Positions 1,338 through 29,866 of a stretch of 64,000 nt of DNA are shown piece after piece (position 1 is the stretch's first letter; each line of letters starts with the position of its first letter). A program made the translations under genes and the position numbers. Source of the stretch: Anaeromicropila populeti (GTDB lineage: Bacteria > Bacillota > Clostridia > Lachnospirales > Lachnospiraceae); NCBI RefSeq assembly GCF_900112775.1, contig NZ_FOYZ01000001.1, forward strand, positions 1 through 64,000, written 5' to 3'. The notes under the pieces were generated by a model that saw only the letters and a program-made list of their open reading frames with translations, was not told the DNA's origin and searched no databases.

Positions 1338-1360
1338 GATTTTCCTCCTGTACTTTCTTC

Positions 1361-1540
1361 TTAAATCTGAAATATATTTTCAGGCTCCTGGTTCATTTTA
1401 CTATTAATTTTTGAAATTTCTTTGCACCATCGAATTCGCTCTCCATGGGGAAGGTTCATAATCTCCTCATGCCCCCAATGCATATAATATCCAATAAATG
1501 CCGCTTCCTCATATATTTGTTCTGCCGGATAAACACTTAT
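1361..1540 (-). CDS. 59-residue injection-system protein (DUF6760-like), apparent AUA start
   Basis: Small protein containing YEEAAFIGYYMHW, followed by a LPHGERIRWCKEISKIN stretch; this resembles the DUF6760 proteins that sit between baseplate and tube genes in Clostridia and other contractile injection clusters. The conserved N-terminal part (SVYPAEQIYEEAAF) has no in-frame ATG, GTG or TTG in front of it. The best start is ATA at 1540-1538, overlapping the TAA stop of the upstream gene as ATAA, the usual coupling geometry with ATG replaced by ATA. GGAAG lies 7 bases before it. If AUA is not used, the only ATG is Met20, which would remove a third of the domain. Confidence 0.65.
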   Translation of the reverse strand: MSVYPAEQIYEEAAFIGYYMHWGHEEIMNLPHGERIRWCKEISKINSKMNQEPENIFQI

Positions 1541-1908
1541 TGACCGGCTTCCATAAAATTTATAGGAATATCAAGCTCCTTATGGCAATGTGGACAAATC
1601 CCTTTATAAGAAGGCACCTCAGCCTCATTAATCCTTTGATATAAATCCTGTAGAAAAGCCAAATCCATTGTAAACAACCCTTCTACAATTGTAGTATCAA
1701 CTACAGGAAGGGTACCCAGGTTTGTTATCACTCTTGACAATAAAATAATAGTCAGATAGCCTGGATTTTGTTGAACCCTTGGATCACGCAATGGTAAAAT
1801 TTCATCTGCCGCACAGGCTAAGCGCATTACTCCCTTAGTATGTATTTCTCCATGTAAATCCCTATAACCTCTTGGTAATGTAAATGGATATTCTATCTGC
1901 ATTGACAT
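1537..1908 (-). CDS. T4 baseplate-like / tail assembly protein of the injection system
   Basis: A 123-residue protein with the pattern seen in contractile injection clusters right after the tube gene: LPRGYRDLHGEIHTKGVMRL, then DPRVQQNPGYL and ILLSRVITNLG, and a C-terminal CPHCHKE motif that could bind zinc. Families of this type are annotated as T4-baseplate-like or phage tail assembly proteins. The exact mechanical role is not known from sequence. It is 76 bases downstream of the tube gene, and its stop overlaps the apparent start of the 59-residue gene, implying translational coupling. Confidence 0.7.
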   Translation of the reverse strand: MSMQIEYPFTLPRGYRDLHGEIHTKGVMRLACAADEILPLRDPRVQQNPGYLTIILLSRVITNLGTLPVVDTTIVEGLFTMDLAFLQDLYQRINEAEVPSYKGICPHCHKELDIPINFMEAGQ

Positions 1909-1983
1909 ATAATTTCCTCCATATCCTTGAAAACCCGCCTTAAGTACATAGTTTAACTCAAGGCAGGCTATTCACTTTTTATA

Positions 1984-2406
1984 CTATTTTGTCCGAGTCA
2001 TTCCTTCATGTGCTATTTCCAAACTCTCTACTGCAATTTCTGAAGAAGTTGCATTAAAATCAGGTGCTGTATACTTTGATGGCCACGCATTAATTACCTG
2101 CCAGGAAGCAACCGCTGCTTCTGTTTCGTCCAACAATGTAATGGTAATGGTTTTTCTTTGAACTGCACCATTTACCCCTGCTATCATCCAGTCATACAAA
2201 ACCTTAGAATCAGCAAGACCTTTTTTCAAAGTAATATTTCCATATTTTTTTAATCCAGGCACTTTCATCGGAGTTTGTACCATGTCACCTTCTCTATATT
2301 CAATCACATCAATTGATGCATCAAATCCGGTTACTTCTGAAAATCCTCCTGCCTGTAAACCGTCTATTTCAACCTTATATCTATATCTACCATGTGGATA
2401 TGCCAT
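1984..2406 (-). CDS. inner tube protein (T4 gp19 family)
   Basis: A 140-residue protein starting MAYPHGRYRYKVEIDG and ending in EIAVESLEIAHEGMTR, the standard form of gp19-type tube subunits in extracellular contractile injection systems. Hexameric rings of this subunit stack to form the inner tube pushed out on sheath contraction. It follows the sheath gene by 23 bases, the usual order sheath then tube. Length matches the family. The residues GLKKYGNITLKKG correspond to the conserved central loop of gp19 proteins. Confidence 0.88.
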   Translation of the reverse strand: MAYPHGRYRYKVEIDGLQAGGFSEVTGFDASIDVIEYREGDMVQTPMKVPGLKKYGNITLKKGLADSKVLYDWMIAGVNGAVQRKTITITLLDETEAAVASWQVINAWPSKYTAPDFNATSSEIAVESLEIAHEGMTRTK

Positions 2407-2429
2407 CCGTGCTCACTCCTCTCCTATTT

Positions 2430-4166: not shown

Positions 4167-4286
4167 ATTATTCCAGTTTCTATTGCAATCACTATTATTG
4201 CATAGTAAACCAGATACCTCCCTTCTTAACAAAAAAGTTGTTGCACCTATTGTACATTTTCTTTATATACTCTTTTATATACAAAA

Positions 4287-10952: not shown

Positions 10953-12656
10953 TTAAATATCTTCCCCTCGTAAACTCATAAACGTGCCGTAAATATCTAG
11001 TATGCCATATCCCCATTCCCGATTCGGGTACGTCAGGTTGGGATTTCGTTTTACCCCTCTTACTAAATATTTTTTTGCCTGAGAGGTGTCCATACCTCTG
11101 TCATTCCCTCTCACGATCCCCCACTCTAACAGCATACCAGTTACTCCTGTGGTCAGAGCCGCTGCAATACTAGATCCAGATTGTGGCGCAAATGTATTTC
11201 CTGGCTGCGGGCTATATACATTTACACCTGGCGCTGCCATCTCTGGTTTCACGTAATCAGTTCTGGAATACCCGCGGCTGGCAAAATTATACAAACTTTG
11301 ATTAACAGGGTCATACGGAGTAACTGTGATTGCATACAACGCATTGCCTGGATTGGTAATTGTTGTATAGGTATTAGGATTTAAGAAAAAGGTTTCATCT
11401 GAAATAAAATTTCTCATAGGAAGCCAGATGTGAAAACCCGATGAAATAATTCCACTATATACATTAAATCTCCAGATACCTGGAGCAACATTTTTAAAGC
11501 GCATTAAGATAAGCTGATCTCCTGACTGAGATTCTACTAATAAGAAATCAATATTTATGATTGTATTCTCAAATAGAAATTTAACTTCCCTGTGTTCATT
11601 TAACCGTGCTGGTATTCGGGGAATGTACTGTCCTGTTGGTGACAATATATCAATGGAATACGTCCCTGGTGTATTTCCCCAAAGTTCCATTGTAAAACCA
11701 GTATCCTTTTCCCCTACTTTCAATTCAACGGTATTAAACCCCTTTGTCTTATCGATTTCTCCATAATAGTGATGACCACTGTTCCCTTCATTACCTCCCG
11801 CAGCCGTAATACAAGTCCCTACCTGATTGGATAAACGGGCAATACTGTCTGCCAGTGCCTCCCGTCCGTCATGGCTGCCCTGATTGCTTCCCAGACCGAT
11901 ACAGATTGCAATGGGTTTTTTCAGTTTTCGGGCGGCATTAAATAAGTAACGCAGTCCAAACATTATGTCATTCTCCTGGTAAGCTATTGCCTCTTCCGGT
12001 ACACGAAAATATTCCTTTAATGCTCTTTTGGCTGGTTTTAGCTTTACAACCACAAATTCTGCCGCTGGCAATACACCTGAAAAATCGCTCTCCGTCATGC
12101 GGTTTCCTCCTGCAAGTCCTGCTAATGTAGTACCATGCCCTATCTCATCTTTGCTGGGAACTATTGAATATGGATTTTTCATTTTTAGTGCCTCATTTAT
12201 TTGCTTTCTACTATATTCTGTTCCATAAAAAAAGGTATCTTCCGTTGCCTTGGTATTGGGAATGGACTGATCCCAAATGGAAACAATTCGCGTAGAGTTA
12301 TCACTGTTTCGAAACAATGGATTTGTATAATCAATTCCTGTATCCACAAATCCCAATAGGATATCCTGTCCCCGCAGACCTAGATATGGAATATTCTGAA
12401 TCTTTACAACACCAAGTTCATCTAGACTGGTCATATCCACAAGACCAAATAATTTAGGAATAATTGAATATCCAATTAGACTTGTAATTTCTTTCTTTAC
12501 CTTTTCTGCTGAATAATAAATAACTGCATACTTATTATCAATAATATTCATTGCTGTCGTATCAAACTGCTCGATTTCTTCGCTGCTTATGTTATATTCA
12601 ATGATACCGTCTACATACTCTTCACTATAAATCTTTATTCTGTCCTCCTCCAGCAT
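10953..12656 (-). CDS. Csp-like subtilase (S8 family serine protease)
   Basis: A 567-residue S8 peptidase of the clostridial CspABC/germination-protease-like group. The catalytic Asp is in GFVDTGIDYTNP, the His in DEIGHGTTLAG, and the Ser in QSGSSIAAAL, where Ser replaces the usual Thr before the nucleophile. The oxyanion Asn is in ITAAGGNEGNSG. There is no signal peptide, and a large insert lies between the His and Ser blocks. It ends in EWGYGILDIYG. Start chosen behind AAAGGATG. About 75 percent similar to the gene immediately upstream, so the pair is a recent tandem duplication. A sporulation or germination role is known for relatives, inferred here. Confidence 0.85.
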   Translation of the reverse strand: MLEEDRIKIYSEEYVDGIIEYNISSEEIEQFDTTAMNIIDNKYAVIYYSAEKVKKEITSLIGYSIIPKLFGLVDMTSLDELGVVKIQNIPYLGLRGQDILLGFVDTGIDYTNPLFRNSDNSTRIVSIWDQSIPNTKATEDTFFYGTEYSRKQINEALKMKNPYSIVPSKDEIGHGTTLAGLAGGNRMTESDFSGVLPAAEFVVVKLKPAKRALKEYFRVPEEAIAYQENDIMFGLRYLFNAARKLKKPIAICIGLGSNQGSHDGREALADSIARLSNQVGTCITAAGGNEGNSGHHYYGEIDKTKGFNTVELKVGEKDTGFTMELWGNTPGTYSIDILSPTGQYIPRIPARLNEHREVKFLFENTIINIDFLLVESQSGDQLILMRFKNVAPGIWRFNVYSGIISSGFHIWLPMRNFISDETFFLNPNTYTTITNPGNALYAITVTPYDPVNQSLYNFASRGYSRTDYVKPEMAAPGVNVYSPQPGNTFAPQSGSSIAAALTTGVTGMLLEWGIVRGNDRGMDTSQAKKYLVRGVKRNPNLTYPNREWGYGILDIYGTFMSLRGEDI

Positions 12657-12704: not shown

Positions 12705-14405
12705 TTATCCTTCTCCCCGCAGACTGATAAAAATTCCGTATACATCTAACATTCCATATCCCCATTCCTTGTTAGGATACACCACATTAGGCATTCTTTT
12801 TACTCCCCGGATTAAATATTTTTTTGTCTGTACCGTGTCCATTCCCCTGTCGTTTCCTTTAACAATTCCCCATTCCAGCAGCATTGCGGTAACACCTGCT
12901 GTAAATGCAGCTGCTATGCTGGAACCTGACTGAGGCTGAAACTGATTATTCAGAGCTGGCGTATATACATTTACACCTGGGGCTGCCAACTCAGGTTTTA
13001 CAACTCCTGTTCTAGAATACCCTCTGCTGGAATATATGTATATACTTTTATTTGTGTGGTCATAAGGAACCACCGTAATTGCAAACATTGCATTTCCTGG
13101 ATTTGTTATGGTGGTATCTGGATTGGGATTAACAAAAAAAGTCTGGTCTGATATAAATCCCCGCATGGGAAGCCATATATGAAACCCTGAAGAAATAGGT
13201 CCGCTATATACATTGAACCGCCAGATTCCTGGTGCTGAATTCTTAAACCGCAATAAAATCAACTGATCTCCCGATTGTGTTTCCAGCAATAAATAATCCA
13301 CAATAACCGTTGTATTTTCAAATAGAAAACTTATCACTCGATGTTCATTAAAAGTCGCTGGTATCCGTGGAACATATTGTCCAGTTGGGGATAACATGTC
13401 AATGGAATAAGTCCCCGGTACTCCACCCCACAGTTCCATGGAAAATCCCTGTTCATTTTCTCCAACCTTTAATTCCACTGTCGTATAGCCTTTACTTTTA
13501 TCTACTTCTCCATAGAAATGGTGACCGCTGTTCCCTTCATTCCCTCCTGCAATGGTGATAGCTATTCCAACCTGATCCGAAAGGGTATTTATCATATCAC
13601 TTAGTACTCCAGTTCCACCATGGCTGCCTTGATTGGTGCCAAGTCCAATACAAATTGCAATTGGTTTTTTCAACCTTCTTGCCATATTAAACAAGTATTG
13701 CAGCCCAAACATAATATCATTTTCCTGATAACAGATGGCATCTTCTGGAATTAAAAAAAAATTTCTTAAAGTCTCCTTAGCAGGCTTTAACTTTACAATT
13801 ACATATTCTGCTGCTGGGGCAACACCTGCGAAATTTTCATTCTCTAATCGCGATCCACCTGCAAGCCCTGCTAATGCAGTTCCATGTCCTATCTCATCTG
13901 TACTTGGAACTATGGACAATGGGTCATCACTTTGCAGCGCCTCATTAATTTGTTCTCTCGTATATTCTGTTCCATAATAAAAGGTTCTGTCTGTTGCCTG
14001 CAAGTTTGGTATAGACTGATCCCAGATGGATACAATACGTGTGGTATTATCGCTGTATTGAAATAATGGATTGGTGTATTCAATACCCGTATCAATAAAT
14101 CCCAATAACACATCCTGCCCCCGAAGAGACAGATAAGGAATATTCTGAATCTTAGTAACACCTATTTCTTCTAAGCTGCTGGTCTCCACCAGTCCAAACA
14201 ATTTGGGAATGACGTAATAACCACTTTGATTAACAAGTGGTTCTGAGATTTTTGAATTTGGAAAATATATTACCGCATATTTTTCATCTATAAAATTTCT
14301 TGGATCTTTTTCAAATGTCAATAACTCTTCGCCGCTAACATTATATTCTATAATCAAATCTGCATATTCCTGACTATATATTCTTTTTCTGTCTTCTTGC
14401 TTCAT
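12705..14405 (-). CDS. Csp-like subtilase (S8 family serine protease), tandem paralogue
   Basis: A 566-residue S8 peptidase, close paralogue of the gene at 10953-12656. The triad is complete: Asp in GFIDTGIEYTNP, His in DEIGHGTALAG, Ser in QSGSSIAAAF. The C-terminal end EWGYGMLDVYG gives the normal length for comparison with the split third copy at 22237-29866. It starts behind AAAGGG. A CATATACT sequence at 14452-14445 resembles the -10 element of mother-cell sporulation sigma factors, though no convincing -35 was found. No signal peptide, so it probably acts inside the cell or spore layers. Confidence 0.85.
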   Translation of the reverse strand: MKQEDRKRIYSQEYADLIIEYNVSGEELLTFEKDPRNFIDEKYAVIYFPNSKISEPLVNQSGYYVIPKLFGLVETSSLEEIGVTKIQNIPYLSLRGQDVLLGFIDTGIEYTNPLFQYSDNTTRIVSIWDQSIPNLQATDRTFYYGTEYTREQINEALQSDDPLSIVPSTDEIGHGTALAGLAGGSRLENENFAGVAPAAEYVIVKLKPAKETLRNFFLIPEDAICYQENDIMFGLQYLFNMARRLKKPIAICIGLGTNQGSHGGTGVLSDMINTLSDQVGIAITIAGGNEGNSGHHFYGEVDKSKGYTTVELKVGENEQGFSMELWGGVPGTYSIDMLSPTGQYVPRIPATFNEHRVISFLFENTTVIVDYLLLETQSGDQLILLRFKNSAPGIWRFNVYSGPISSGFHIWLPMRGFISDQTFFVNPNPDTTITNPGNAMFAITVVPYDHTNKSIYIYSSRGYSRTGVVKPELAAPGVNVYTPALNNQFQPQSGSSIAAAFTAGVTAMLLEWGIVKGNDRGMDTVQTKKYLIRGVKRMPNVVYPNKEWGYGMLDVYGIFISLRGEG

Positions 14406-14535
14406 ATCACAGCCTGCCCTTTCCCAAATCTAATCTTTCGTATAAGTATATGAACGCATGGTACAAATTAAAACACAATTTCCATATATCGCGTTTGGTC
14501 CTATTATATCACCAGCATCACCATACATATAAGAA

Positions 14536-15489
14536 TCAAACTTCCTGACAATTCCCTCTGGTGTATTCTAAATGATAAGAATTCACTTTTTGGAAAACCT
14601 TTGGGTCAATAATGGCCTGGTGATGATTTTCTATTCTCTTCCACTTTTCTTTCTCAATTAACCTGGACTTCTTGCTTCCTATTTCTTTCACCTTGTATTT
14701 GCTGTAAATAAACGTTCCAATATAAACTTCATTCTTCAGTATAGACTGGACCACCTGAATACTCCACACATAGGTTTTAACTGGAGCATCTGGTGTCTTT
14801 CTTTTCTGTTTAAACATAGCTGGTGTTGGTACCTGCTTTTGATTTAACATCCCTGCTATCTCTCCCGGCCTCTTGCCTTCCTCTGTCCAAAGAAAGATAT
14901 CCCGCACAACCTCTGCCTCCTCCTTTTGAACTAGAAGCTGGTTTCTATTCCCAGAGTCCTTATAATAACCAAACGGTTCACTGCCATTGGCATACTGCCC
15001 GCTGCTCTTCTTCACCTCCAAAGATGCTTTTACCTTTTCCGAAATATCTTTGCAGTAAAAATCTGCAAGAATACTTTTAAATGCCACATCCAGACCAGCC
15101 ATGTTTTCTTTTAGGCAGCTGCTGTCATACCCGTCACTAATGGAAATAAAACGGACTCCCATAAAAGGAAAAATCTGTTCCAAATAACTTCCCAATTCAA
15201 TGTAATCTCTTGAGAATCTGGAGAAGTCCTTTACTATCACCGTATGAACCTCCCCCTTCTTTAAAGCTTTAAAAAGCTGCTGAATGGCTGGCCGCAGAAA
15301 ATTACTTCCACTATATCCATCATCGTAAAACTCAATTACTTCTTCACTCTCAAATTCTTTCTTTGACCTGATAAAAGCTTGTATCATTACCCTTTGGTTG
15401 GTAATGCTGTTACTTTCCTCAAAAAAGCCTTTATCCTCTACGGATATTCGCATATAAACTGCCACATACTGCTTACCGCTCATTTTCAT
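14536..15489 (-). CDS. serine recombinase, short form without zinc ribbon
   Basis: A 317-residue large-serine-recombinase relative. The resolvase catalytic domain has the nucleophile serine in YMRISVED (about residue 16) and the conserved VKDFSRFSRDYIE arginine block. A recombinase domain follows (residues about 165-300). The zinc ribbon and coiled coil found in its two neighbours are absent, since the protein stops right after the recombinase domain. Last of three consecutive recombinase genes, overlapping the upstream one by 17 bases. Two ATG starts three codons apart are possible. Confidence 0.88.
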   Translation of the reverse strand: MKMSGKQYVAVYMRISVEDKGFFEESNSITNQRVMIQAFIRSKKEFESEEVIEFYDDGYSGSNFLRPAIQQLFKALKKGEVHTVIVKDFSRFSRDYIELGSYLEQIFPFMGVRFISISDGYDSSCLKENMAGLDVAFKSILADFYCKDISEKVKASLEVKKSSGQYANGSEPFGYYKDSGNRNQLLVQKEEAEVVRDIFLWTEEGKRPGEIAGMLNQKQVPTPAMFKQKRKTPDAPVKTYVWSIQVVQSILKNEVYIGTFIYSKYKVKEIGSKKSRLIEKEKWKRIENHHQAIIDPKVFQKVNSYHLEYTRGNCQEV

Positions 15490-17068
15490 ACTCTCCTTCT
15501 ATGGTCTGTCGAAACTCTAATACAAGTTCCATTCTCTTTTCTGAATAGAGTACTATTTTGTTCACCATGCCACATAAGAAATCATCTGTCAACGCATTCA
15601 ATAGTCGTCTATTTTCTACTCCTTTTCTTTCTATTTCTTCTATTCTGTTCTTCACCTCTTTTTCCCGTCTTTCTAAAAATAAGCGGTTCTGCCGGACTTC
15701 CCTCTGCCTCTTTAAAAATTCCTTTTCTTCCATGTTCCCTTCTATATAATGCTGGAAGTCACGGCTAAACATTTTTTCTGCGTACCCCTTCCTTTCTTTT
15801 ATTTGTATCAGTTCATTTTTCACGCTGAATACTGCCGTTTTTTTTGCTTTTTCGTTTAATTTTAAAAAACCTTGCTGCTCCAGCCTGCTCATTAAAAACT
15901 CTCTTTGCATACTAGCTTCTATAATAAGTAAAAGTTCTCTTTCTTGTATGGTTTTTCTGCTGCATTTTCTTTCGTCCTGATACTGACTGTTTCCACAATA
16001 GTAAGAAATCCTTCTTATCTCTGTCCCCCTTGCTCTATAATATGCCTTTCTTAATTTTTTTTGACACTCTCCACAGAAAACCACTTCTCCCAACAACCCT
16101 CCTGCCCCATCAGCACCGCTCTTTGTTCTAGTCCTTTGATTATTTAAAAGAAGTTTGCTGACCTGTTGGAACACCTCATCTTCTACAATTGGCATATGAG
16201 CGTTTTTTACAATAAATTGATCTTCCACAACTGTTTTTCTAGCTTTATGATTTTCATAAAGTCTGCTGCTGGATTTCCTTTGAACCAGTTGACCTATATA
16301 AACTGAATTTTGTAAAAGTTCTTTTATCACATCTGTTTTCCAGGCAAACAGCTTTTCCCCCTCCTTTCTTCTTACATGTCCATATTTCCTGTACTCACTG
16401 ATTCGATGAACATGTTTCTGATATAATTGTCCTGCTATTTCTTTACACCCCATTCCTGTAAGATACTGCTGGAAAATCCATCGCACAATAATCGCCGCTT
16501 CAAGTTCCATTTCTAATAAACGCTTTCCCTCTTTCCATACGACACAATACCCATAAGGTGCTATGCTCCCCATAAAACTTCCTTTTTCCTGAAGCATCCA
16601 TTTTGTGTCGCTGACACGCTTTGATATATCCTTTGCATACAGTTCATTTACAAGGTTTTTTATGTTTACCACCATTTTCTGGTTTTCAACATCCTCCGCC
16701 AGGCTGTCATACCCGTCTGCTATCGCAATAAAACGTACCTTTAAAAAAGGAAATATTCTATCTACATAATTTCCTGTTTCAATATGGTCTCTTCCAAATC
16801 GGGAAAAATCCTTCACCACGATACAGTTGATTCTGCCTGCTTTTACATCTGCCATCATCCTTTGAAATCCACTTCTTTCAAAATCAGTACCTGTTCTCCC
16901 ACAATCCTGATACACCGCTCCAATTTCAATATCTGCTGCCTGCTCCACGTATTTTTTGGCAAGATCTATTTGTGTCTCAATAGACTCTGTTTTCCGATCC
17001 CTGGAATCAACCGATAATCTGGCATATACTCCAGCAGTATATATTCTCTCTGCTTTCTGTCCACTCAT
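15473..17068 (-). CDS. large serine recombinase
   Basis: A 531-residue recombinase. Catalytic domain with nucleophile serine in VYARLSVDSRD and the VKDFSRFGRDHIETG block; recombinase domain about residues 165-300; a Cys4 zinc ribbon (CGECQKKLRKAYY, YYCGNSQYQDERKC) and a Lys/Glu-rich coiled coil near the C-terminus (about 400-490). It is the middle of three recombinase genes. Such sets in Clostridia often act together to integrate or excise one element. Start behind AAAGGAAA. Confidence 0.9.
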   Translation of the reverse strand: MSGQKAERIYTAGVYARLSVDSRDRKTESIETQIDLAKKYVEQAADIEIGAVYQDCGRTGTDFERSGFQRMMADVKAGRINCIVVKDFSRFGRDHIETGNYVDRIFPFLKVRFIAIADGYDSLAEDVENQKMVVNIKNLVNELYAKDISKRVSDTKWMLQEKGSFMGSIAPYGYCVVWKEGKRLLEMELEAAIIVRWIFQQYLTGMGCKEIAGQLYQKHVHRISEYRKYGHVRRKEGEKLFAWKTDVIKELLQNSVYIGQLVQRKSSSRLYENHKARKTVVEDQFIVKNAHMPIVEDEVFQQVSKLLLNNQRTRTKSGADGAGGLLGEVVFCGECQKKLRKAYYRARGTEIRRISYYCGNSQYQDERKCSRKTIQERELLLIIEASMQREFLMSRLEQQGFLKLNEKAKKTAVFSVKNELIQIKERKGYAEKMFSRDFQHYIEGNMEEKEFLKRQREVRQNRLFLERREKEVKNRIEEIERKGVENRRLLNALTDDFLCGMVNKIVLYSEKRMELVLEFRQTIEGEYENER

Positions 17069-17085
17069 TGATTTTCCTTTCTTTT

Positions 17086-18666
17086 CTACGTCGTTATAAG
17101 ACTACTTTGGCAGCAAAGCACTACCTGTATTGTTTTTGCATCAATAATTTGTATCTGGTCAATAACCCGCAAAACAAGGGAACGGTTTAGTTTTTCAAAA
17201 TAATTTACCTCCTCTTCCTGACTTTGCTTTTTCCACTCTTCCTGGTCCGCCTTCTGCTTTCTTAAAACTTCTTTTAACTCTTCATACTGGTTTTTATAAA
17301 TCTGATATAATGTATCCTGTTCTTCTTTTGAAATTTCTTTGTTTCTCCCCTTTTCCTCTACAGCTTCCATCAGCCTACTTATTCGTCTGCACTCTCTAAC
17401 AATTGTCTGCTGGTGTTGTCTTTCTGCTTCACTACATGGACTTTTTGGATTCAAATCGTTCCTCCAGCCAAGCAGCCTTTCCGAACCAAAAAACACAGCA
17501 AACTGCCATCTTAAAAGCTGTCGTACCGTTTCCTCCAGTACAACTGCTTCTATACTGTGTCTAGAGCATTGCTTTGTGTTTTTATTATAGGTAGCACAAA
17601 TATAGTACTTGTTTTTTTTCTCTTGATAAGAGACTGTTTTTCGTACCATATTTTGTTCACAATCCCCACATCTAAGAAGTCCTGAAAATATATCAGCTAC
17701 ATTTTCATGTCCTGTCACTCTGGTATCCCACTGAAGTATTTTCTGAACTAAATAAAAATCCTCCCTGTTAATAACAGCTTCATGAGTATTCTCCACTATA
17801 ATCCACTGAGATTTTGGCCGATATACTCTTTTATTTATTTTGTAGTTAATCTTTTCTCTCTTTCCCTGAGCTAATGTTCCAATATATAGCTGATTTTCTA
17901 AAATTCTTTTGACTGTTTCTCTGGACCATCTTGCACTTGTGCATTTCTCGAATCCTGAGTAGTACTTAAGCCCACAAAGCTTTTTGTATTCAAGAGGTGA
18001 TAAAACCCCCTTATCATTTAGTTTATCTGCAATGTTTTTTTCACTCCAGCCTTCTAATTTCCATGAAAATATCTGTTTTACAATTTGAGCGGGATAGGCG
18101 TCTATCAGTAACTGGTTTTTGTTTTTTGGATTTTTCACATATCCATAGGCTGCAAAGGAACCTGTGAATTCTCCCTGTTTTCTTTTTATTTCCTGTTGAC
18201 TTCTAACCTTTTGAGAAATGTCTCTGCAATAGGAATCGTTGATAAAATTTTTTATTGGTAGTAAGAAGGCACTTTCTGCTTTATTGGCAGTCAAACTGTC
18301 ATATCGATCCGAAATAGCAATAAAGCGCACAGAAAAAGCTGGGAGAATTCTTTGAATCCATCTCCCAGCTTCAATATAATCTCGTCCAAAACGAGAAAGA
18401 TCTTTTACGATAATCAGATTTATCTTTCCTAAATGGACATCCTCCATCATTCTCTTAAATTCTGGACGTTCAAAATTACTTCCTGAAAATCCATCATCCA
18501 CGTACACTTCCACCAGTCGTATTTCTGGCTTATCCACCAAATAGTCTGCTATCAGTTCCCGCTGGCTTCCAATACTATTGCTCTCTGCTTTACTTCTTCC
18601 ATCTTTCACTGCATCTTCCCTAGATAACCGAAGATATGCACCAGCATAGTAAATTGCTTCACTCAT
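17086..18666 (-). CDS. large serine recombinase
   Basis: A 526-residue recombinase; the start is the ATG at 18666, with GGAG 8 bases upstream, rather than a GTG three codons earlier. Nucleophile serine in AYLRLSREDAV, then VKDLSRFGRDYIEAG; recombinase domain, a Cys4 zinc ribbon (CGDCEQNMVRK, YYICATYNKNTKQC) and a coiled coil. First gene of the recombinase trio, separated from the next by 17 bases and from the upstream ABC ATPase gene by 57 bases. Divergence between the three proteins is large, so they are not recent duplicates. Confidence 0.9.
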   Translation of the reverse strand: MSEAIYYAGAYLRLSREDAVKDGRSKAESNSIGSQRELIADYLVDKPEIRLVEVYVDDGFSGSNFERPEFKRMMEDVHLGKINLIIVKDLSRFGRDYIEAGRWIQRILPAFSVRFIAISDRYDSLTANKAESAFLLPIKNFINDSYCRDISQKVRSQQEIKRKQGEFTGSFAAYGYVKNPKNKNQLLIDAYPAQIVKQIFSWKLEGWSEKNIADKLNDKGVLSPLEYKKLCGLKYYSGFEKCTSARWSRETVKRILENQLYIGTLAQGKREKINYKINKRVYRPKSQWIIVENTHEAVINREDFYLVQKILQWDTRVTGHENVADIFSGLLRCGDCEQNMVRKTVSYQEKKNKYYICATYNKNTKQCSRHSIEAVVLEETVRQLLRWQFAVFFGSERLLGWRNDLNPKSPCSEAERQHQQTIVRECRRISRLMEAVEEKGRNKEISKEEQDTLYQIYKNQYEELKEVLRKQKADQEEWKKQSQEEEVNYFEKLNRSLVLRVIDQIQIIDAKTIQVVLCCQSSLITT

Positions 18667-18677
18667 GCACTTCACTC

Positions 18678-22236: not shown

Positions 22237-23279
22237 TTATTTGCTAGCAGAATCTCCACTTGTCATTAAAAAGACTCCATCCCCCCACTCCATGAGTAAT
22301 GCCGCTGCTCCTGTAACAAATGGCGTTGCCATTGAGGTTCCGGATTTCATTGTATATCCGCCGCCACTAGAGGTAGACATGATTTCTACCCCTGGTGCAA
22401 CGATATCTGGTTTTACCATTCCATTTTTCGTGTAGCCTCTTCCTGAAAAGACTGCCAAGCTGTCATTTCTTCCATTGTATGCACCTACTGTGATTGCTTT
22501 AGCCGCAGTGGATGGAATGGTCAGTGTTGTTTCTACAGACGGACGCAAAAAGCGTGTGGAAGAATTTAGTACTCCTGAAGTTGGGAACCAGATATCATAA
22601 TTGCCAACTACTATATCCTTTGGTATAAATTCCAGCACCCATACTCCACTGGCTATATACCGATTGGCTCCACTTGGTATAAATTCAATGTATATCTCCT
22701 GATCCACACTGTATGGTGTAGGCTCGCCATAATAAATAAGCAACTCTGTTCCTTCTATTATAAATTGTTGTTTTCCTGCCACTTTAGTAATAGTGCCAGA
22801 GCGTGTCAGTCCTGGGGCACGTACAATAATGTCAAAATCATCAAAGAAATTTTTCCATATTTGCAGATTCAAATTTGCTTCTGCCTCTGACACCGAAAAT
22901 TCTACTATTGTATTTGTATTTTTATTTACAATCCCTGAGGCATGATATCCTAATGAGCCGTTATTTCCACTGCCAATACATATGGATGTTTTCCATATAT
23001 TTGACACATCATTGATGTACTGCTCTAATAATGAATTGTTGGCATGGGCACCGTAATTATTTCCAAAGCTGATGTTTATTGCCAGTGGTTGGTTCAGCCA
23101 TGCTGCCGTCCGTATGGCATAATCAATGGCTGACATAAGCTGGGTTGTTTTTGGAAAGCTTCCGCTAATAGAGGAACCTAACTTTACAATAAGCAAATCG
23201 CTTTTTGGAGCAACCCCTCTATATACCCCGTCACTGGATCTTCCATTTCCTGCTGCAATGCCTGCAACATGAGTCCCGT
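22237..23279 (-). CDS. 3' half of the interrupted S8 protease gene
   Basis: Encodes the C-terminal part of a Csp-like subtilase, resuming at GTHVAGIAAGNGRS. The catalytic Ser block KSGTSMATPFVTG and the oxyanion Asn (CIGSGNNGSLG) are intact. In the integrated state it lacks the Asp and His blocks and has only a poor TTG start, so it is probably silent. Excision of 23264-29246 would join it in frame to the 5' half at 29243-29866 as a protein of 548 residues. The end is odd: after LLMEWG it has 14 unrelated residues and a stop, where the two neighbours continue for about 54 residues. Confidence 0.88.
23264..23279. repeat. left attachment site of the intervening element
   Basis: GCAACATGAGTCCCGT, repeated with one mismatch at 29247-29262. 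On its right, GTACTTCAAAAAC (23278-23290) is an imperfect inverted match (10 of 13) to GTTTTTCGATTAC at 29234-29246. On a circularised element these two arms would flank a 14-base core with TG at its centre, the expected form of a serine-recombinase attP site. Confidence 0.85.
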
Positions 23280-23292
23280 ACTTCAAAAACTG

Positions 23293-24864
23293 CTAGATAT
23301 TCCAGTATATCTCGATTTCCCTGTTTCCATAGCAGTCCTTTTCCCCCACCTCAATATGATCAATAAAATCTGCCACTATTTCATTTGACAGATTCTTAAA
23401 ATCTATATATGTTTCTATTCCTTCTTTTTCATTCCCCTTTTGGTTCACTTCCAAAGAAAAATTTTTAATTTTTTCTTCTGTTTCTTTCCATTCCTTTTCT
23501 AATTGTATCAATTCCTGCTTAAGACTCTGTTTCATGTCAAGAAATTCCTCTTCACTGAACAGCCCCTTGGTTTTATCAATGTATAACGTGGACATTGCCT
23601 TCTTTACATCCTGCATTTGGATTTCTATGTTTTTTCTGCTCTGATTTATTCCCGTTGTTCGTCTTTGCAGCTCTATGCTTTCATTCTGTACCACCTCTGT
23701 TCGCCAGTCCCTGGGTGGTATGTCATCTATAAGCTGCTTTATTTCCAAACCAACCTGTTCTATTAGCAAATCCAACCGTATGCTATGGGTGGTACATTCC
23801 GCTCCTCTTGTCTTATTTGCCAATTGGCACCGCAAGTATCCCTTTTCTCCTCCTCCGCTTTTTATCATGGCAGCCCCACAATCCCTGCATTTTACCTTTC
23901 CTGCCAGACAATGTGCCTTCCGCTTACCTTTGTAATAGCAAACGGTTCTTTTTGCCTTCATTAAGTTTTGAACCTGAAAAAAAATCGTTTCCTCTACAAT
24001 TGGCTCATGGCTGTTTTTTATCACAATCCATTCTTCTTCTGGTGCCAGAACGATTTTTTTGCTTTTGTAGCTGATTTTTTTTTCCCGTCCCTGAATGAGA
24101 TACCCAATGTAAACTTTATTTTTTAATATTCGTTTTATTGTATTGGTACTCCATATCCCATAAGTTGTTGAGAAATCTGAATTGCTGTTTTGATAGGCTA
24201 ATCCAATAGACTGCTTATATTGCGTGGGTGTCAGAATTTTTTCTTCTGTGAGAATCCCAGAGATTTGCCTTATGCTGTATCCTTGGAGATAGAGGTCAAA
24301 TATTTTGCGTACCACCTTTGCCGCCTCTTCATCAATTGCCAGCTTATATTTTTCCTGCCGCTTGTAGCCGTAACAGCTAAAGCTTCCTAAAAATTTGCCT
24401 TCCTTCATCTTCTGGCGAAATACGCTTTTTATATTTTCTGAAGTATCTTCTAAATACCACTCATTGACAAGGCCGCTAATCTGCCTTGCTTTTTTGTTTC
24501 CTTTTACGTTGGTATCTACGTGATCCACAACTCCAATAAATCGTATTCCCCACTCTAAGAAGAGACCATGAATATACTTTTCTACGATTTCCAGCTCCCT
24601 TGTAAATCGGGACTGTGTCTTGCATAAAACCACACTAAATCTTCTGTTTTCTGCATCGTGCAGCATTTTGCTCCATTCTGGTCTGTTTTTATCTGCTCCG
24701 CTGAAGTCATCATCGCTATAGATTTTATAAATCTGCATATTATGCTCCATGGCATACTCTCTTAAAAGCGTTTTCTGGTTTTGAATGCTTTCGCTGTCAT
24801 CCCCTTGCTTTATTTTGATTTCATCTTCCTTTGACAGTCTGCAATAAATAGCTACTTTATCCAT
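23293..24864 (-). CDS. large serine recombinase of the intervening element
   Basis: A 523-residue recombinase. Nucleophile serine 11 in IYCRLSKED; CKTQSRFTRELEIVEKYI replaces the more usual VKDFSRFGRDYIE block of its neighbours, so it belongs to another branch than the trio at 14.5-18.7 kb. A Cys4 zinc ribbon (CRDCGAAMIKSGG, LRCQLANKTRGAEC) and a coiled coil (about 395-470) follow. The stop codon is 14 bases from the left repeat, the classical position next to the attachment site. Most likely catalyses integration and excision of this element. Confidence 0.92.
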   Translation of the reverse strand: MDKVAIYCRLSKEDEIKIKQGDDSESIQNQKTLLREYAMEHNMQIYKIYSDDDFSGADKNRPEWSKMLHDAENRRFSVVLCKTQSRFTRELEIVEKYIHGLFLEWGIRFIGVVDHVDTNVKGNKKARQISGLVNEWYLEDTSENIKSVFRQKMKEGKFLGSFSCYGYKRQEKYKLAIDEEAAKVVRKIFDLYLQGYSIRQISGILTEEKILTPTQYKQSIGLAYQNSNSDFSTTYGIWSTNTIKRILKNKVYIGYLIQGREKKISYKSKKIVLAPEEEWIVIKNSHEPIVEETIFFQVQNLMKAKRTVCYYKGKRKAHCLAGKVKCRDCGAAMIKSGGGEKGYLRCQLANKTRGAECTTHSIRLDLLIEQVGLEIKQLIDDIPPRDWRTEVVQNESIELQRRTTGINQSRKNIEIQMQDVKKAMSTLYIDKTKGLFSEEEFLDMKQSLKQELIQLEKEWKETEEKIKNFSLEVNQKGNEKEGIETYIDFKNLSNEIVADFIDHIEVGEKDCYGNREIEIYWNI

Positions 24865-25049
24865 AACACAGCCCTCTCTATTTATTGTTCTGCCGGCTTA
24901 TTATTTTTATCAATATTTGAATTATCTTTTCTTCCCGCTTTTTTTTATCCTTTTCCTTAAAATGATTATGTATGATTAGATTGTCGATAACAACCAGCTC
25001 CTTATTTCTTTCCTTTCATTTTATGTTTTTTGACTGTTTTTCATGCTTA

Positions 25050-25103
25050 TGGGAAAAGAAAAAGGCCCATGGATGACTGGGCTGTTACGTAATCATCATG
25101 GGC
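25050..25103 (-). terminator. rho-independent terminator inside the element
   Basis: On the minus strand GCCCATGATGA and TCATCCATGGGC pair (11 bp with one bulged base) around a 16-base loop and are followed by CTTTTTCTTTT. It would stop transcription coming from the genes to the right before the recombinase. Confidence 0.7.
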
Positions 25104-25271
25104 ATTTATTTAAATTACAATTTTTTGTTATCATTATATTTCCCATACAATCCTTCTTTCATATAAGCACCAATATACAATATCAAAATTTACGAAGTAC
25201 ATGACACTATGAAAAGTTTCAATACATCTCATGTTACGGTTCAACAGACGTAAATACGCCAATCCTTTTTT

Positions 25272-25611
25272 TCTATAATACCACAAAATTCAGATTTTGC
25301 AAACTTTCGACAAAAAAATCAGTTGGACTTTTCAGCATCAATTGTCACTTAATCTCAAAAACACACCCACTAGTTTTCCTATTTATGTACACTCAACTAA
25401 TCATATTGTATTTTTATTACTTTATCACAATATTTTTTTACCCCATTCTCTTCGTAATATTTTGTCCGTCAGCTTTCCTCTTCTGATAATTCTGTTATGC
25501 TGATCAACTCAAAGGTCATGCCGTCTTATTTTTAAGCCGTTCTCTTATCTTTTCCAATAAACTAGGGGTTCTCCTCGGTATGCTCTTATAATTCAGTAAA
25601 CCCTCTATTCT
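25272..25611. repeat. diverged direct repeat, copy A
   Basis: About 340 bases that align with 26101-26535 over the full length, with shared blocks such as AATCAGTTGGACTTT, TAGTTTTCCTATTT and TTTATCACAATAT. Many substitutions break all frames, so it looks non-coding or decayed. It lies upstream of the recombinase gene. Confidence 0.65.
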
Positions 25612-25627
25612 TGAAACATCACTTCTG

Positions 25628-26053
25628 CTATTCCTCTGACCAACTCAATTTATATTTACCTTTTGCCTGCTTTGCATTAATTTGAATTGTATATTTTTGG
25701 TCTTTGGGTACCACAAAACTTATTTCTCCATCTACCGTTCCTTCTTTACTATCAATAAGATTTCCATTTTCATCCAAAACTTTTAACATAAGACTTCCTG
25801 ACTCTTCTGTTAATGAATATTTAATGATAGCCGTTTTACTTTCCTGAAATACTACTTGCTTTTTCTTTGAACCACTAAAATATTTGAATGAAGCACTTAG
25901 CTCATTCCCAATATTATTTCCTGAAAAACCGATTTGTATATTAGCAAAGTCCTTCCTCGCTAATATGACGCTTAAAACAATGATAGCCATCCCCAGCACA
26001 CCAAATATTACAACCAATACCTTTTTCTTGTTCATAATTCTTTTCTTATCCAT
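25628..26053 (-). CDS. small membrane-anchored protein, unknown
   Basis: A 141-residue protein starting behind GGGGAG. A lysine-rich N-terminus is followed by one membrane helix (residues about 11-31) and then an extracytoplasmic domain with alternating hydrophobic residues typical of beta strands (SLMLKVLDENGNLI, KYTIQINAKQAKGKYKLSW). It resembles the small anchored beta-sandwich proteins common in Firmicutes, without an assignable family. It lies between the two diverged repeats A and B. No cysteine in the N-terminal segment, so not a lipoprotein. Confidence 0.65.
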   Translation of the reverse strand: MDKKRIMNKKKVLVVIFGVLGMAIIVLSVILARKDFANIQIGFSGNNIGNELSASFKYFSGSKKKQVVFQESKTAIIKYSLTEESGSLMLKVLDENGNLIDSKEGTVDGEISFVVPKDQKYTIQINAKQAKGKYKLSWSEE

Positions 26054-26100
26054 ATTTCTCCCCTTTTCTGCAATAAAGAAATCTTTCTTTATCGTTTCTT

Positions 26101-26535
26101 TCCATAATACTCAAAAAATTTGGATTTTGCAAGCTTATCTATAAAATCAGTTGGACTTTCTAGCACCAACTGCCACATAATCACAAAAAACGCACTCAAT
26201 AGTTTTCCTATTTCGTGCGACCAGTTAACCTTATTGCATTTTTTTCACTTTATCACAATATCTTTTCATTATAGTCTGGTGGCTGCAAAAACTAGCAGGC
26301 AGCCACCCTCTGTAAAAAGATATCCATATCCAGTCTCAAAAATTATGTCCAATATCTTTTTTTGCAACCAAGTCTCTCCTTAGTATTCTGTCTGTCAGCT
26401 TTTCTCTGTCTCATAATTCAGTTATGCTGATTCCTTAAACGTCACGCTGTCTCATTTTTAAGTCATTCCCTTATCTTTTGTAGTGAGATTGGTTCTACTT
26501 GGTATGCTTATATATTACACCATAACCTCTATTCC
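26101..26535. repeat. diverged direct repeat, copy B
   Basis: Aligns with copy A at 25272-25611. It is about 95 bases longer because of an insertion around 26270-26365 that includes the hairpin at 26278-26307. It lies directly upstream of the small anchored protein gene, so both copies sit in 5' regions of element genes. Confidence 0.65.
26278..26307. repeat. perfect 9-bp hairpin in repeat B
   Basis: GGTGGCTGC and GCAGCCACC enclose a 12-base loop. No T-tract follows on either strand, so it is not a standard terminator. It is absent from copy A. The G/C-rich stem stands out in A/T-rich DNA. Confidence 0.6.
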
Positions 26536-26670
26536 AACAACTCAACTCTTACATTTTACATTAATCCCATATAAAATGTTATTATATTCAAGCTTTTCCT
26601 CATTCGCTCTATGTTTTCCGACTAGTTCGTATACTTTTAGGCAAGAAATGCTCTTTAATGACTCACACTT

Positions 26671-27366
26671 TTACTTCTTCCACTTATCATTTACAAATCC
26701 AAATCCCCGTGCATTTCCTTCCAGTATTCCAACCCCAAGAGCAAAATACGCCAGCTCCTGCGCCATGGGATGCTCTGATATATACAAGTCCAGCTTATCT
26801 CCGAGCAGACTAACATTTTTATAGGCACAAAGAATTGGTTTTCTATTAATGAACTCTATCCTCTCAAAAAACGAAAAGTCTTCATCTACCAGCTGTCCTG
26901 TAAAATCCTTATACTTTTTGATTAGATTGCTTTTAACTGCTTCCAAAAAATTTGCTTCAGGCAAATAACTCCTCCAATATCCATAATCCGTTTTCAGCAT
27001 ACAGGGCGAAATGGAATATAACTTATAAATTGTCCGCTTCGGAAGCATCTGTACCGATGTCTCTATTACCTTTATAATTCTGTCCTTTACCCGTACTGCT
27101 TGATTGGCAAAATGTTGGGCAAGCTCCCTATCTGTTGTACGAATTTGAAGCTGATACCTCTTATTCTTGTGATATACTTTGTCACTGCTGGTTGGATACA
27201 ATGAGTTAAAACAATAATTCTTATATTTTTTTGCATTGTGCAGACCTATTAGTTCTTCCTTCTGGCACAATACGTTGTCTAAAAACTTACAGAGTACTTC
27301 CATTGTCTTTTCCATTGGTAAATTCTCCTGAAGATATATTTCCAATGAAATTTGAAACACTACCAT
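26671..27366 (-). CDS. cas6: Cas6-like CRISPR endoribonuclease, orphan
   Basis: A 231-residue protein starting at the ATG at 27366 behind GGGAGG; 23 further in-frame codons upstream are less likely. It matches Cas6 of the type I-B/III branch: N-terminal ferredoxin-like half with YKNYCFNSLYPTSSDK and RYQLQIRTTDRELAQHF, middle KRTIYKLYSISPCM, and the C-terminal glycine-rich loop GVGILEGNARGFGFVN. Cas6 cuts precursor CRISPR RNA at a repeat hairpin. A candidate catalytic His is in NKAQHF-like helix positions (H about 110), not proven. No array, other cas gene or repeat-spacer pattern is in the window. Confidence 0.82.
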   Translation of the reverse strand: MVVFQISLEIYLQENLPMEKTMEVLCKFLDNVLCQKEELIGLHNAKKYKNYCFNSLYPTSSDKVYHKNKRYQLQIRTTDRELAQHFANQAVRVKDRIIKVIETSVQMLPKRTIYKLYSISPCMLKTDYGYWRSYLPEANFLEAVKSNLIKKYKDFTGQLVDEDFSFFERIEFINRKPILCAYKNVSLLGDKLDLYISEHPMAQELAYFALGVGILEGNARGFGFVNDKWKK

Positions 27367-27585
27367 TTTGTCTTTCCTCCCACCTTCAAGCTTATTTTTT
27401 CGTGACATCAGCGACACCGCACAATAAAAGCACACATCATGAAAATTCCTTCATAATTATGTGCTTCTGCCTTTTCATTTGTGTCACTATTTAACTTTAC
27501 TGTATTTATTCATTTTATTGTATAAGTATACCATTAATTTCATTTTATTACAACATTATTTTTTATATTTCTAGTTTTTCTTCCT

Positions 27586-27897
27586 TCATACTCTTATAAT
27601 CGCCCATTTGCAGTTTTCCTTCGTATACACCAACTTTACTGTTTCTTCCATCCCTCTGTACCGTATCTTACAAATGTACTCCACTGTTGCAATTCCAGAA
27701 TAATTTTTCGGTTCTGAACACAATACTCGTATTTCCTGTATAGTATGAATCCGGCCTTCCTCATCCATAATCTTAATCATACGCGGTGTCATTTCCCCCT
27801 GACTTGTAAACCAGCAATAACAGGCAACTTCCCTTTGAATGCCTTTTAACCGTCCAGCATTGGTTTCCTGAATGATTTCTCCCAGATAAAATCCCAT
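27586..27897 (-). CDS. conserved small protein coupled to the Y-family polymerase
   Basis: A 103-residue protein whose ATG overlaps the polymerase stop (TAATG), so translation is coupled. Proteins of this length follow dinB-like genes in many Clostridia; function unknown. Sequence shows an N-terminal MGFYLGEII, a central RMIKIMDEEGRIHTI and a C-terminal VEYICKIRYRGMEE with alternating beta-type residues. No membrane segment. Probably a polymerase accessory protein, by position only. Confidence 0.7.
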   Translation of the reverse strand: MGFYLGEIIQETNAGRLKGIQREVACYCWFTSQGEMTPRMIKIMDEEGRIHTIQEIRVLCSEPKNYSGIATVEYICKIRYRGMEETVKLVYTKENCKWAIIRV

Positions 27898-29165
27898 TAT
27901 TCTACCTTTTCATTCTTATAATCTACCGTTCTCTTCTCTTTTGATATGCCGCCATTCATATGATCAATTCTGTCATTTTGAATAAACGCCGCTCTCATAA
28001 CGGAATCTGTCCCATACCGTTCCCGGATGCTGTCCACTACCCGATCCAGTTTTTCCAATTTTTCATAATCAAACTGATCAAATAAAGTAAGCTGCCTGGC
28101 TGGCTCTGCATTTACTACTCTGCTGGTTTGAATTCCTAACTGCCGGATGGGAGTCCCGTCCCATAACTCATCGAATAGCTGAGCTGCTGCCTGATAAATC
28201 TCACTGGTTATATCTGTCGGCTCACACAATACACACTGATGCGAAGCCGATATCAAATCAAAATTTTTAATTCCCACTGATATCACTTGAACCCTCACCT
28301 GATCCTTCCGAACTCTCTTCCCAATAGTTTCTGCCAAAGATAATAAAACCATCTTAGCTGTGGCTGGATCGCACACATCAAATGAAATGGTAGTGCTGTT
28401 TCCATACCCCTTATTTGCTGCTGGCTGTGACTCCACAATAGAAGTGTCTCTTCCATTGGCAAAATTCCAGATCACTTCCCCATGTTTTTTCAAATGATGC
28501 TTTACTATCTCCATATTGGTATTAGCCAGTTCTCCAATTGTCCTGATTCCCAGGCTGGTTAACCTCTTCTCCGTTGCCCTGCCTACACAAAAAAGTTCTC
28601 TTACTGGAAGCGGCCACATCTTCTGCTGTATTTCTTCTGGAAAAAGTGTATGCACCAGATTAGGCTTTTGAAAATCTCCTGCCATCTTGGCAAGTATTTT
28701 ATTACTGGATACTCCTACATTTACCGTAAATCCAAGTTCCTTATAAATTCTGTCCTTAATTACATGGGCAGCCACAACGGGCTTTCCAAATAAATTCTCC
28801 ATCCCTGTCATATCTACAAATGCCTCATCTATGCTATACTGCTCTACCTGAGGCGAATACTCTCGTAAAATCTCCATAAATGCCTTGGAATTCTTTTCAT
28901 ATAAAGAATAATTCGGGGGTACCAGCAAAAGATTAGGACACTTTTTCAATGCCTCTGTAATGGATTCTCCCGTCTGAATCTTGTATTTTTTGGCAGGGAC
29001 GGACTTTGCCAGAATAATACCATGGCGCTTCGACATGTCCCCGCCAACAGCCGAAACAATATCTCTCAAATCTACCGTTCCCCCCAGGTGTTTCAAGCGG
29101 TACACCGCCTCCCAGCTTAAAAATGCACTGTTCACATCTATATGAAAAATAACCCTTGTACTCAA
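27897..29165 (-). CDS. dinB: Y-family DNA polymerase (DinB/Pol IV-like)
   Basis: A 422-residue translesion polymerase. The start is probably the TTG at 29165, with AGAGAGG 8 bases upstream; a GTG three codons earlier overlaps that site. Palm motifs FHIDVNSAFLSWEA and YSIDEAFVDMTG hold the metal-binding acidic residues; VGVSSNKILAKMAGDFQKPN and the helix-hairpin-helix region FCVGRATEKRLTSLGI are typical. It copies damaged templates at low fidelity. Its promoter carries a LexA box (29198-29209). First gene next to the right end of the element. Confidence 0.93.
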   Translation of the reverse strand: MSTRVIFHIDVNSAFLSWEAVYRLKHLGGTVDLRDIVSAVGGDMSKRHGIILAKSVPAKKYKIQTGESITEALKKCPNLLLVPPNYSLYEKNSKAFMEILREYSPQVEQYSIDEAFVDMTGMENLFGKPVVAAHVIKDRIYKELGFTVNVGVSSNKILAKMAGDFQKPNLVHTLFPEEIQQKMWPLPVRELFCVGRATEKRLTSLGIRTIGELANTNMEIVKHHLKKHGEVIWNFANGRDTSIVESQPAANKGYGNSTTISFDVCDPATAKMVLLSLAETIGKRVRKDQVRVQVISVGIKNFDLISASHQCVLCEPTDITSEIYQAAAQLFDELWDGTPIRQLGIQTSRVVNAEPARQLTLFDQFDYEKLEKLDRVVDSIRERYGTDSVMRAAFIQNDRIDHMNGGISKEKRTVDYKNEKVE

Positions 29166-29188
29166 TTTTGTCACCTCTCTTAATAAGT

Positions 29189-29217
29189 ATTATATCAGAA
29201 CGTTTGTTCTGTGTAAA
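29189..29217 (-). promoter_or_regulatory. SOS-controlled promoter of the polymerase gene
   Basis: TTTACA (29217-29212) and TATAAT (29194-29189) on the minus strand with 17-base spacing. Between them GAACGTTTGTTC at 29198-29209 matches the Gram-positive LexA box GAAC-N4-GTTC, so LexA would block the spacer. The ribosome-binding site AGAGAGG follows. Confidence 0.85.
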
Positions 29218-29242
29218 GAGGATGAAACTGGTTGTTTTTCGA

Positions 29243-29866
29243 TTACGCAACATGAGTTCCGTGTCCTGATAAATCTGTGCTAGGAACCAGTTCCAATTGT
29301 TCAGGAACCGTCCGCTTGCGAAGTGCCATGTTAATTCGTTCTCTCGTGTAAAGAGTGCCTGTAGAAAAACCTTCTGGTGGAGCCAGGTCTCCCGATGGTG
29401 CAATAGTCTGATCCCATATTGCAATAATTCGGGTTGTATTGTCTGGATTACGGAAATCCGGATGTGAATAGTCAATGCCAGAATCAATAATTGCTACAAT
29501 AACACCTTCTCCAAACAAACCTGTTTCTGTTCTTTGGACAGGGTTAATACACGATGCTGCCCTCCCATCATTTACGGCAAATTGCAGCTTTTTTGGCATT
29601 TCAATAAATTCAATTTCATCATATTCCGAAAGTCTGGAAATCAGTCTCTGTTTAATAATAATGACTGCATATCCTGCAAATAAAACCGTCAACTGCATAT
29701 CCAGCTCCTCCTGAATTCTTTCAATATCCCCAATATACTTAATAATTAATTCCCATGTACTTTCTTCCTCATCATATCCAATTTCTAAATCCGACGTTTT
29801 TTGTCTTTGCCGGTTGGTACTGTCTAAGGCAAGTTTCAATTGGTTATCCAGCTTTTCACTGTCCAT
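29243..29866 (-). CDS. 5' half of the interrupted S8 protease gene
   Basis: Encodes the first 207 residues of a Csp-like subtilase. The catalytic Asp is in VIAIIDSGIDYSHPDF and the catalytic His in TDLSGHGTHVA, after which a TAA from the element ends the frame. A helical N-terminal prodomain-like region covers residues about 1-100. In the present form it lacks the Ser block. Joined to 22237-23279 it would give a 548-residue protease with a full triad. A CATATATTA at 29901-29893, 27 bases before the ATG, resembles the -10 region of mother-cell sigma factors. Confidence 0.88.
   Translation of the reverse strand: MDSEKLDNQLKLALDSTNRQRQKTSDLEIGYDEEESTWELIIKYIGDIERIQEELDMQLTVLFAGYAVIIIKQRLISRLSEYDEIEFIEMPKKLQFAVNDGRAASCINPVQRTETGLFGEGVIVAIIDSGIDYSHPDFRNPDNTTRIIAIWDQTIAPSGDLAPPEGFSTGTLYTRERINMALRKRTVPEQLELVPSTDLSGHGTHVA
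29247..29262. repeat. right attachment site of the intervening element
   Basis: GCAACATGAGTTCCGT, differing from the left copy only at position 12 (T for C), which changes a Gly codon from GGG to GGA. The left neighbour GTTTTTCGATTAC (29234-29246) is the second arm of the inferred attP dyad. Confidence 0.85.

Follow-up and report, generated by a model that had tools for sequence, protein, structure and literature searches.

Several sporulation genes, viz. sigK, spsM, spoVFB, gerE and yabG, are known to be split by elements that can be removed (PMC10747680). The skin element in sigK of C. difficile has a large serine recombinase (LSR) driven by sigma-A, together with a separate small recombination directionality factor (RDF) of 72 aa under the control of sigma-E and SpoIIID (PMC5025042), and the gin element in gerE of Bacillus cereus ATCC10987 is 28.6 kb long, with three recombinases and the 42-aa protein GirX (PMC5595907). 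The yin element in yabG of C. botulinum is a prophage that is reported to be unique and for which an excised circle has been reported (PMC10747680), and SP-beta, an active phage of Bacillus subtilis, restores spsM by its excision at the time of sporulation (PMC4191935). The present work concerns an element of 5,983 bp that splits a cspB-type germination protease gene (csp) of the subtilase family in Anaeromicropila populeti (assembly GCF_900112775.1), within positions 1 to 64,000 of contig NZ_FOYZ01000001.1; the whole of this stretch of 64,000 nucleotides is referred to as the window. A preliminary description of this DNA had proposed that it contains a skin-type element in a Csp-like protease, whose excision controls the enzyme. 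The interpretation favoured here, with a probability of roughly 0.6, is that the LSR family to which this element belongs constitutes a skin-like switch in csp genes, of which the window copy is a locked and decaying member.

In comparison with the described systems, the csp element resembles gin in its non-phage cargo, in the short direct repeats located within the interrupted gene (which in gin is restored exactly) and in combining a serine recombinase with a tiny unannotated reading frame, the counterpart of which in gin is the directionality factor; however, the target of gin is gerE and not a germination protease, gin is much larger, and in its number of recombinases it is nearer to the clusters of three LSRs found elsewhere in this genome than to the csp element (PMC5595907). 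An LSR is also shared with the skin element of C. difficile, but there the target is sigK and the RDF is longer, whereas the window copy is without a demonstrable sigma-E promoter (PMC5025042). Like yin, the element lies in the gene of a spore protease of the coat/germination pathway and has an LSR at one end, but unlike yin, a prophage in a cysteine protease gene that is reported to be unique, the csp elements recur at one codon (PMC10747680). SP-beta differs both in being an active phage and in its target (PMC4191935). As judged by these likenesses, the LSR family is skin- or gin-like in its anatomy. No element in csp or cotJC is described among the matches listed from titles and abstract openings of the open-licence PMC literature. 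If the favoured interpretation is correct, then a germination protease would join the five genes named above, and a removable element would be seen to recur at one csp codon in several Lachnospiraceae-type genomes.

The split csp gene and its occurrence in other genomes

The 5' half of csp matches both PF18425 (CspB_prodomain; E 1.4e-30) and PF00082 (Peptidase_S8; E 5e-7), and its last residues, GHGTHVA, are followed by a stop. The 3' half (22237-23286, minus strand) restarts at THVAGIAAGNG, the cut falling between HG and THVAG, and the solved CspB chain 4i0w aligns to it over residues 3-335. At the junctions a 16-bp repeat with one mismatch is present, GCAACATGAGTCCCGT at 23264 and, 5,983 bp away, GCAACATGAGTTCCGT at 29247, and it is the sole match of at least 13 bases with at most one mismatch when positions 23201-23340 are scanned at offsets of 5950-6019. 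The mismatch is located in a Gly codon (GGA/GGG) and is silent. Removal of one repeat copy and the DNA in between joins 203 and 345 codons precisely in frame, giving 548 codons in which the CspB prodomain is followed by a subtilase domain with the Asp, His, Asn and Ser motifs, and an LSR with Resolvase, Recombinase and zinc-ribbon domains lies beside one end of the element. The cut in the His motif, the repeat with its silent mismatch, the open frame of 548 residues with Asp, His and Ser, and the LSR beside one end had been noted in the preliminary description and were found again here. The segment is probably an integrative element whose LSR placed it in the His-motif codons (HG/THVAG) of this cspB-type subtilase gene.

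Since the same codon is hit in five other genomes, viz. three of Anaerocolumna, one of Herbinix and the genome G369, the interruption goes beyond what is expected by chance. An LSR adjoins the 3' half of csp at this codon in locus L060 of an Anaerocolumna metagenome-assembled genome (MAG), in L061 and L062, each on a complete Anaerocolumna chromosome, and in L063 of a Herbinix MAG. The 5' half is found on the same contig in the three Anaerocolumna genomes, at distances of 6,288, 15,315 and 25,156 bp, and on another contig in Herbinix. In G369, which consists of a single contig, csp is interrupted at the same codon by about 10 kb, and its LSR accompanies the 5' half and is encoded on the other strand. 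The search of relatives for an intact protease, which the preliminary description had called for, gave uninterrupted csp genes in G302 and in G024, the latter of the same genus as G369; G302 is the closest relative among the matches listed, with 65% identity to the window 5' half. Both csp halves are retained as open frames in each of the six genomes; the joined genes of the five others are in frame with complete C-termini and contain 583, 587, 592, 576 and 583 codons (start codons picked by script). The arms of the attachment sites form, by eye, an imperfect inverted repeat centred on the C/A of the His codon after Thr, which is weaker in Herbinix.

That the split gene is an artefact of assembly or binning could be considered, as the window derives from a draft genome (contig C29; 4.22 Mb in 44 contigs with 2.1% contamination). 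However, the same junction is seen in the two complete Anaerocolumna chromosomes and in the single contig of G369, and the ends of the element fit the anatomy of attachment sites, and this explanation is hardly to be credited.

The cargo of the six csp elements is mostly dissimilar. Four matches were found, none of them involving the window or L060: L152 has one gene in common with L153 (69% over 141 aa) and one in common with G369 (40% over 128 aa), and the remaining two matches, both weak, involve Herbinix. L060 carries Vsr, restriction enzyme and methylase-like genes, and the cargo of L152, L153 and G369 is miscellaneous. Shared cargo was rejected as a source of an excision factor, as the Cas6, polymerase, 103-aa and 141-aa genes of the window are unmatched in the other csp elements; L162 and L163, which also appeared in this search, correspond to the window, and matches to the polymerase in L171, L068 and L110 are all outside this group. 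Between L060 and L152 the csp sequences are 77-79% identical but the LSRs only 49% (window and L060 LSRs, 56%), and due to this disagreement repeated acquisition of the elements is indicated. If the favoured interpretation is correct, their recurrence with mostly different cargo would open the evolution of developmental excision to comparative tests.

The csp 5' half was matched by 216 of 397 genomes of the same bacterial family (E 1e-35), and the number of interrupted csp genes given here is at least that stated. Short csp frames were followed in G123, G369, G148, G169, G270, G287 (two genes) and G298, with G416 left out. In G123, two intact csp copies are accompanied by a 5' half that has an attachment-like arm but no LSR and is a dead relic. 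The frames stop near residue 276 in G169, G270 and both G287 genes, and near residue 270 in G148; two other LSRs lie between the csp parts of G169, whose 3' part extends to residue 578 of 583, and in G148, G270 and G287 no 3' part was found within the stretch fetched. These interruptions near residues 270-276 (loci L170-L174; in L171 by other recombinases) indicate that interruption of csp is not confined to a single site. The short frame of G298 was rejected as an insertion, a small gap being present instead.

The recombinase family and its small reading frame

A search of the genome collection with an LSR alignment, the window's own genome excluded, gave 565 confirmed relatives. The genes adjoining the best 80 of these and the window and G369 loci (82 loci in all) were classified by searching the neighbouring 900 bases for sequence patterns: 41 belong to the Mn-catalase family, 10 are subtilases, 27 are other genes and 4 are contig edges. 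All 10 subtilase-adjoining LSRs, and that of L065, fall within a single clade of 13 tips (support 0.99), to which the LSR of L083 is sister in the midpoint-rooted tree. The subtilase pattern is incomplete: judged by eye, the gene at L065 resembles a subtilase and that at L083 is the 5' half of one, with NGHGTQ at its end, although a shorter fragment from each locus was below a Pfam S8 match. This LSR group would appear to use the His motif of csp and other subtilase genes as its attachment site. The Mn-catalase loci, located within L078-L136 (e.g. L109, L094 and L128), are, by pattern match, apparently widespread intervening elements in a spore gene, and look even commoner than those in csp; two of the fragments were verified with Pfam (PF05067), and the spore-coat member of this family is CotJC. 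At L072 and L079, related LSRs adjoin a PRK06851-type hypothetical gene (NF005320, checked in L072 only).

Just upstream of the LSR a small open reading frame (ORF) of about 35-56 residues is conserved. Hidden Markov models (HMMs) built from 8 and 6 seeds detected it in 40 and 9 non-seed loci, with 0 on the reverse strand, and by the union of both models, seeds included, it is present in 61 of 83 regions. In nine pairs the differences are distributed over codon positions 1, 2 and 3 as 33/21/70. Six sequences that were tested gave no Pfam family above cut-off. A start codon was not found by script in six of the 61, including L062, where a TTG lies slightly further on (by eye). In the window, the ORF is a 45-codon stop-to-stop frame (24878-25015). 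The conserved ORF resembles known RDF arrangements; it is a candidate excision factor and a concrete candidate for the directionality factor of many recombinases that are otherwise uncharacterised.

A two-box sigma-E-like motif, ATA-N15-18-CATANNNT, is found upstream of the small ORF in 30 of 58 regions, compared with a mean of 1.57 (max 5) in shuffled sequences and 1.3 (max 4) in random windows, and 28 of the 30 sites are located 17-38 nt upstream of the ORF. By group, 24 of 34 CotJC-type loci, which form the sister group to the subtilase clade, have the motif. A block ATAGGACA[AT]G, a pattern picked after inspection, is present in 3 of 10 subtilase-clade loci and resembles the B. subtilis SpoIIID site. 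The host genome encodes both SpoIIID and sigma-E and is, in terms of its gene content, competent for mother-cell control. Upstream of the window ORF, neither the two-box motif nor the ATAGGACA[AT]G block is present.

The second break and the weighing of interpretations

The 3' half of the window gene contains a second break, which, like the small ORF and the Cas6, polymerase and CRISPR repeat cargo, had been overlooked in the preliminary description. In a protein search, 33 of 41 genomes matched this half, and after the window's own row the best 27 rows all stop at query residue 335 of 349, at ...LLMEWG; one weaker paralogue row (G007:C11, 33% identity) extends to residue 345. The final 14 residues of the window protein appear unrelated to the tails of its relatives, and 4i0w has 62 more residues past its match to residue 335. 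The full-length relatives compared have a conserved C-terminal stretch of about 50 residues that is absent from the window protein. A displaced csp tail (GEKVKAYLIAGTRKL...), identical in 32 of 42 residues to that of G302, is located on another contig of the same genome (G000:C36:121731-121868) directly after three tandem LSRs (LSRs and tail together, G000:C36:117248-121868; L033). As the genes on C36 before 121 kb resemble, by eye, those of the core chromosome, the csp parts have apparently been separated by rearrangement, and a single large insertion between 22282 and the C36 tail was rejected. A seven-base match near both breaks would give an out-of-frame join (by eye), and the sequence near the second break has no significant match elsewhere in its own genome. 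A 36-residue frame beside the short third LSR downstream of the second break (14433-14540) was also considered, but it has no convincing relative.

The frame of 548 residues is open and contains the catalytic residues, as the preliminary description had stated, but it is predicted to encode a truncated enzyme and not a full-length protease, without the complete run from catalytic domain to C-terminus expected of a Csp. It could be argued that the window copy is nevertheless a working switch, whose excision yields a functional, naturally shorter Csp, as the catalytic motifs are intact and the branch of the retained part of csp shows no excess length (0.315, versus 0.394 for the uninterrupted sister G302). 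However, the missing C-terminal residues are coded elsewhere, on C36, and the window small ORF is open but has no in-frame ATG, GTG or TTG, an ATC standing, by eye, where L060 and L086 have their ATG, although a sequencing error may account for this. We consider such a switch very improbable, and because its restored product is not full length, unlike those of the five other genomes, the window copy is classed as probably a locked member of the family. In this lineage the switch has probably been crippled by loss of both the C-terminal coding end of csp and the start of the small ORF, and, if so, it would show the fate of a broken domesticated element.

For the csp genes themselves, five close pairs gave dN of 0.055-0.157 with synonymous sites saturated or nearly so, and csp in the interrupted genomes is under purifying selection without acceleration. 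This constraint fits genes that work after excision, and also recent insertion.

The elements could also be ordinary mobile islands with defence or DNA-repair cargo, which attach at a conserved coding motif, inactivate a gene dispensable in vegetative growth and are excised at low frequency without developmental control. Conserved motifs are common targets of LSRs. The accessory and mostly unrelated cargo, the weakness of the promoter signal in the subtilase clade, the further decay of the window csp and the relic in G123 beside intact copies are all in accordance with such islands. However, islands of this kind would not readily account for halves that stay open in six genomes with five joined genes that are full length and constrained, for the relatives that adjoin Mn-catalase genes in half of the loci and whose small ORF has a sigma-E-like promoter, or for the conservation of an ORF arranged like known RDFs, and we regard this explanation as less likely than the favoured one.

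Several results nevertheless weigh against the skin-like switch that is favoured here. The window copy lacks the csp C-terminus and a start for its small ORF, and the ORF was undetected in 22 of 83 regions. Eight patterns were tried, the two-box motif among them; its 30 cases are not independent as some loci are close relatives, its signal is for the most part that of the Mn-catalase loci, and none of the 10 loci of the subtilase clade has it within 60 nt of the ORF. Sigma-E/K motifs are unenriched in the 200 bases preceding the LSR genes (two two-box patterns, 0 of 82), and the purifying selection on csp may predate recent insertions. The lack of sporulation promoters at the LSR genes, however, fits the sigma-A-driven LSR of the C. 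difficile skin element (PMC5025042). The anatomy, the uninterrupted orthologues, the five other genomes with an occupied site and the candidate for an excision factor speak for the earlier proposal of a skin-type element; control of the enzyme by excision is plausible for the family, but the window copy is unlikely to give a working product. A more specific version, in which these LSRs are specialised on His-motif codons and a micro-gene timed to the mother cell turns cargo-swapping csp islands into a switch, with the window lineage locked and its protease being lost, is put forward tentatively, at somewhat under even odds.

Element contents and neighbouring genes

The features of the split gene and the element are listed in Table 1.

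Table 1. Coordinates within the window of the csp parts, the inserted element and associated features
Feature	Position	Strand	Remarks
Three tandem LSRs	14536..18675	-	14536-15489 (short), 15473-17068, 17086-18675; downstream of second break
csp end past second break	22237..22281	-	DGVFLMTSGDSASK + stop; non-homologous to relatives' tails
csp 3' part homologous to relatives	22282..23274	-	THVAG... to ...LLMEWG; Ser motif GTSMATP
Inserted element	23264..29246		5,983 bp
Direct repeat copy, 3'-half junction	23264..23279		attR side
LSR	23293..24864	-	523 aa; stop few bases from attachment core
Small ORF, candidate RDF	24878..24988	-	Just upstream of LSR; HMM E 4.1e-7 (window outside seed)
Possible sigma-E-type -10	25018..25025	-	CATAAAAT; poor -35, weak
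Single CRISPR repeat	25216..25245	+	Rfam RF01316; same sequence as two repeats at G000:C21:311-406
Predicted protein, 141 aa	25628..26053	-	Without family match
Cas6 endoribonuclease	26671..27435	-	Homology from residue 24; TIGR01877 78 bits (cut-off 58.65); Cas6b E 2.3e-81
Protein, 103 aa	27586..27897	-	Without family match
Y-family DNA polymerase	27897..29174	-	
csp 5' half	29243..29866	-	CspB_prodomain, catalytic Asp + His; stop just inside element
Direct repeat copy, 5'-half junction	29247..29262		attL side

No phage structural genes were found among the five element proteins scanned against PHROGs, which matched only for the recombinase and the polymerase, and the element is therefore not a prophage by this measure. 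Among 595 phage and 302 plasmid records no close copy of the window LSR is present (all below 60% identity), and the best match among 80 viral contigs listed is 46%. The 141-aa gene is flanked by two diverged direct copies of a sequence (25262-25610 and 26091-26534; identity about 76-78%). The two repeats on C21 belong to a small decaying CRISPR array.

Elsewhere in the window, genes for a phage-like contractile tail tube and sheath (PF06841, PF04984) are found at 924-4232, and two intact Csp-like S8 proteases (10953-12656 and 12705-14405) lie immediately downstream of the three-recombinase cluster. In the same genome, another subtilase gene, not of the Csp type, on C26 (L032 4229-11834; 74.2-81.8 kb) is split around AAG(N)G by an insert that carries three short LSRs and genes that by eye resemble two-component and nitrilase-type genes.

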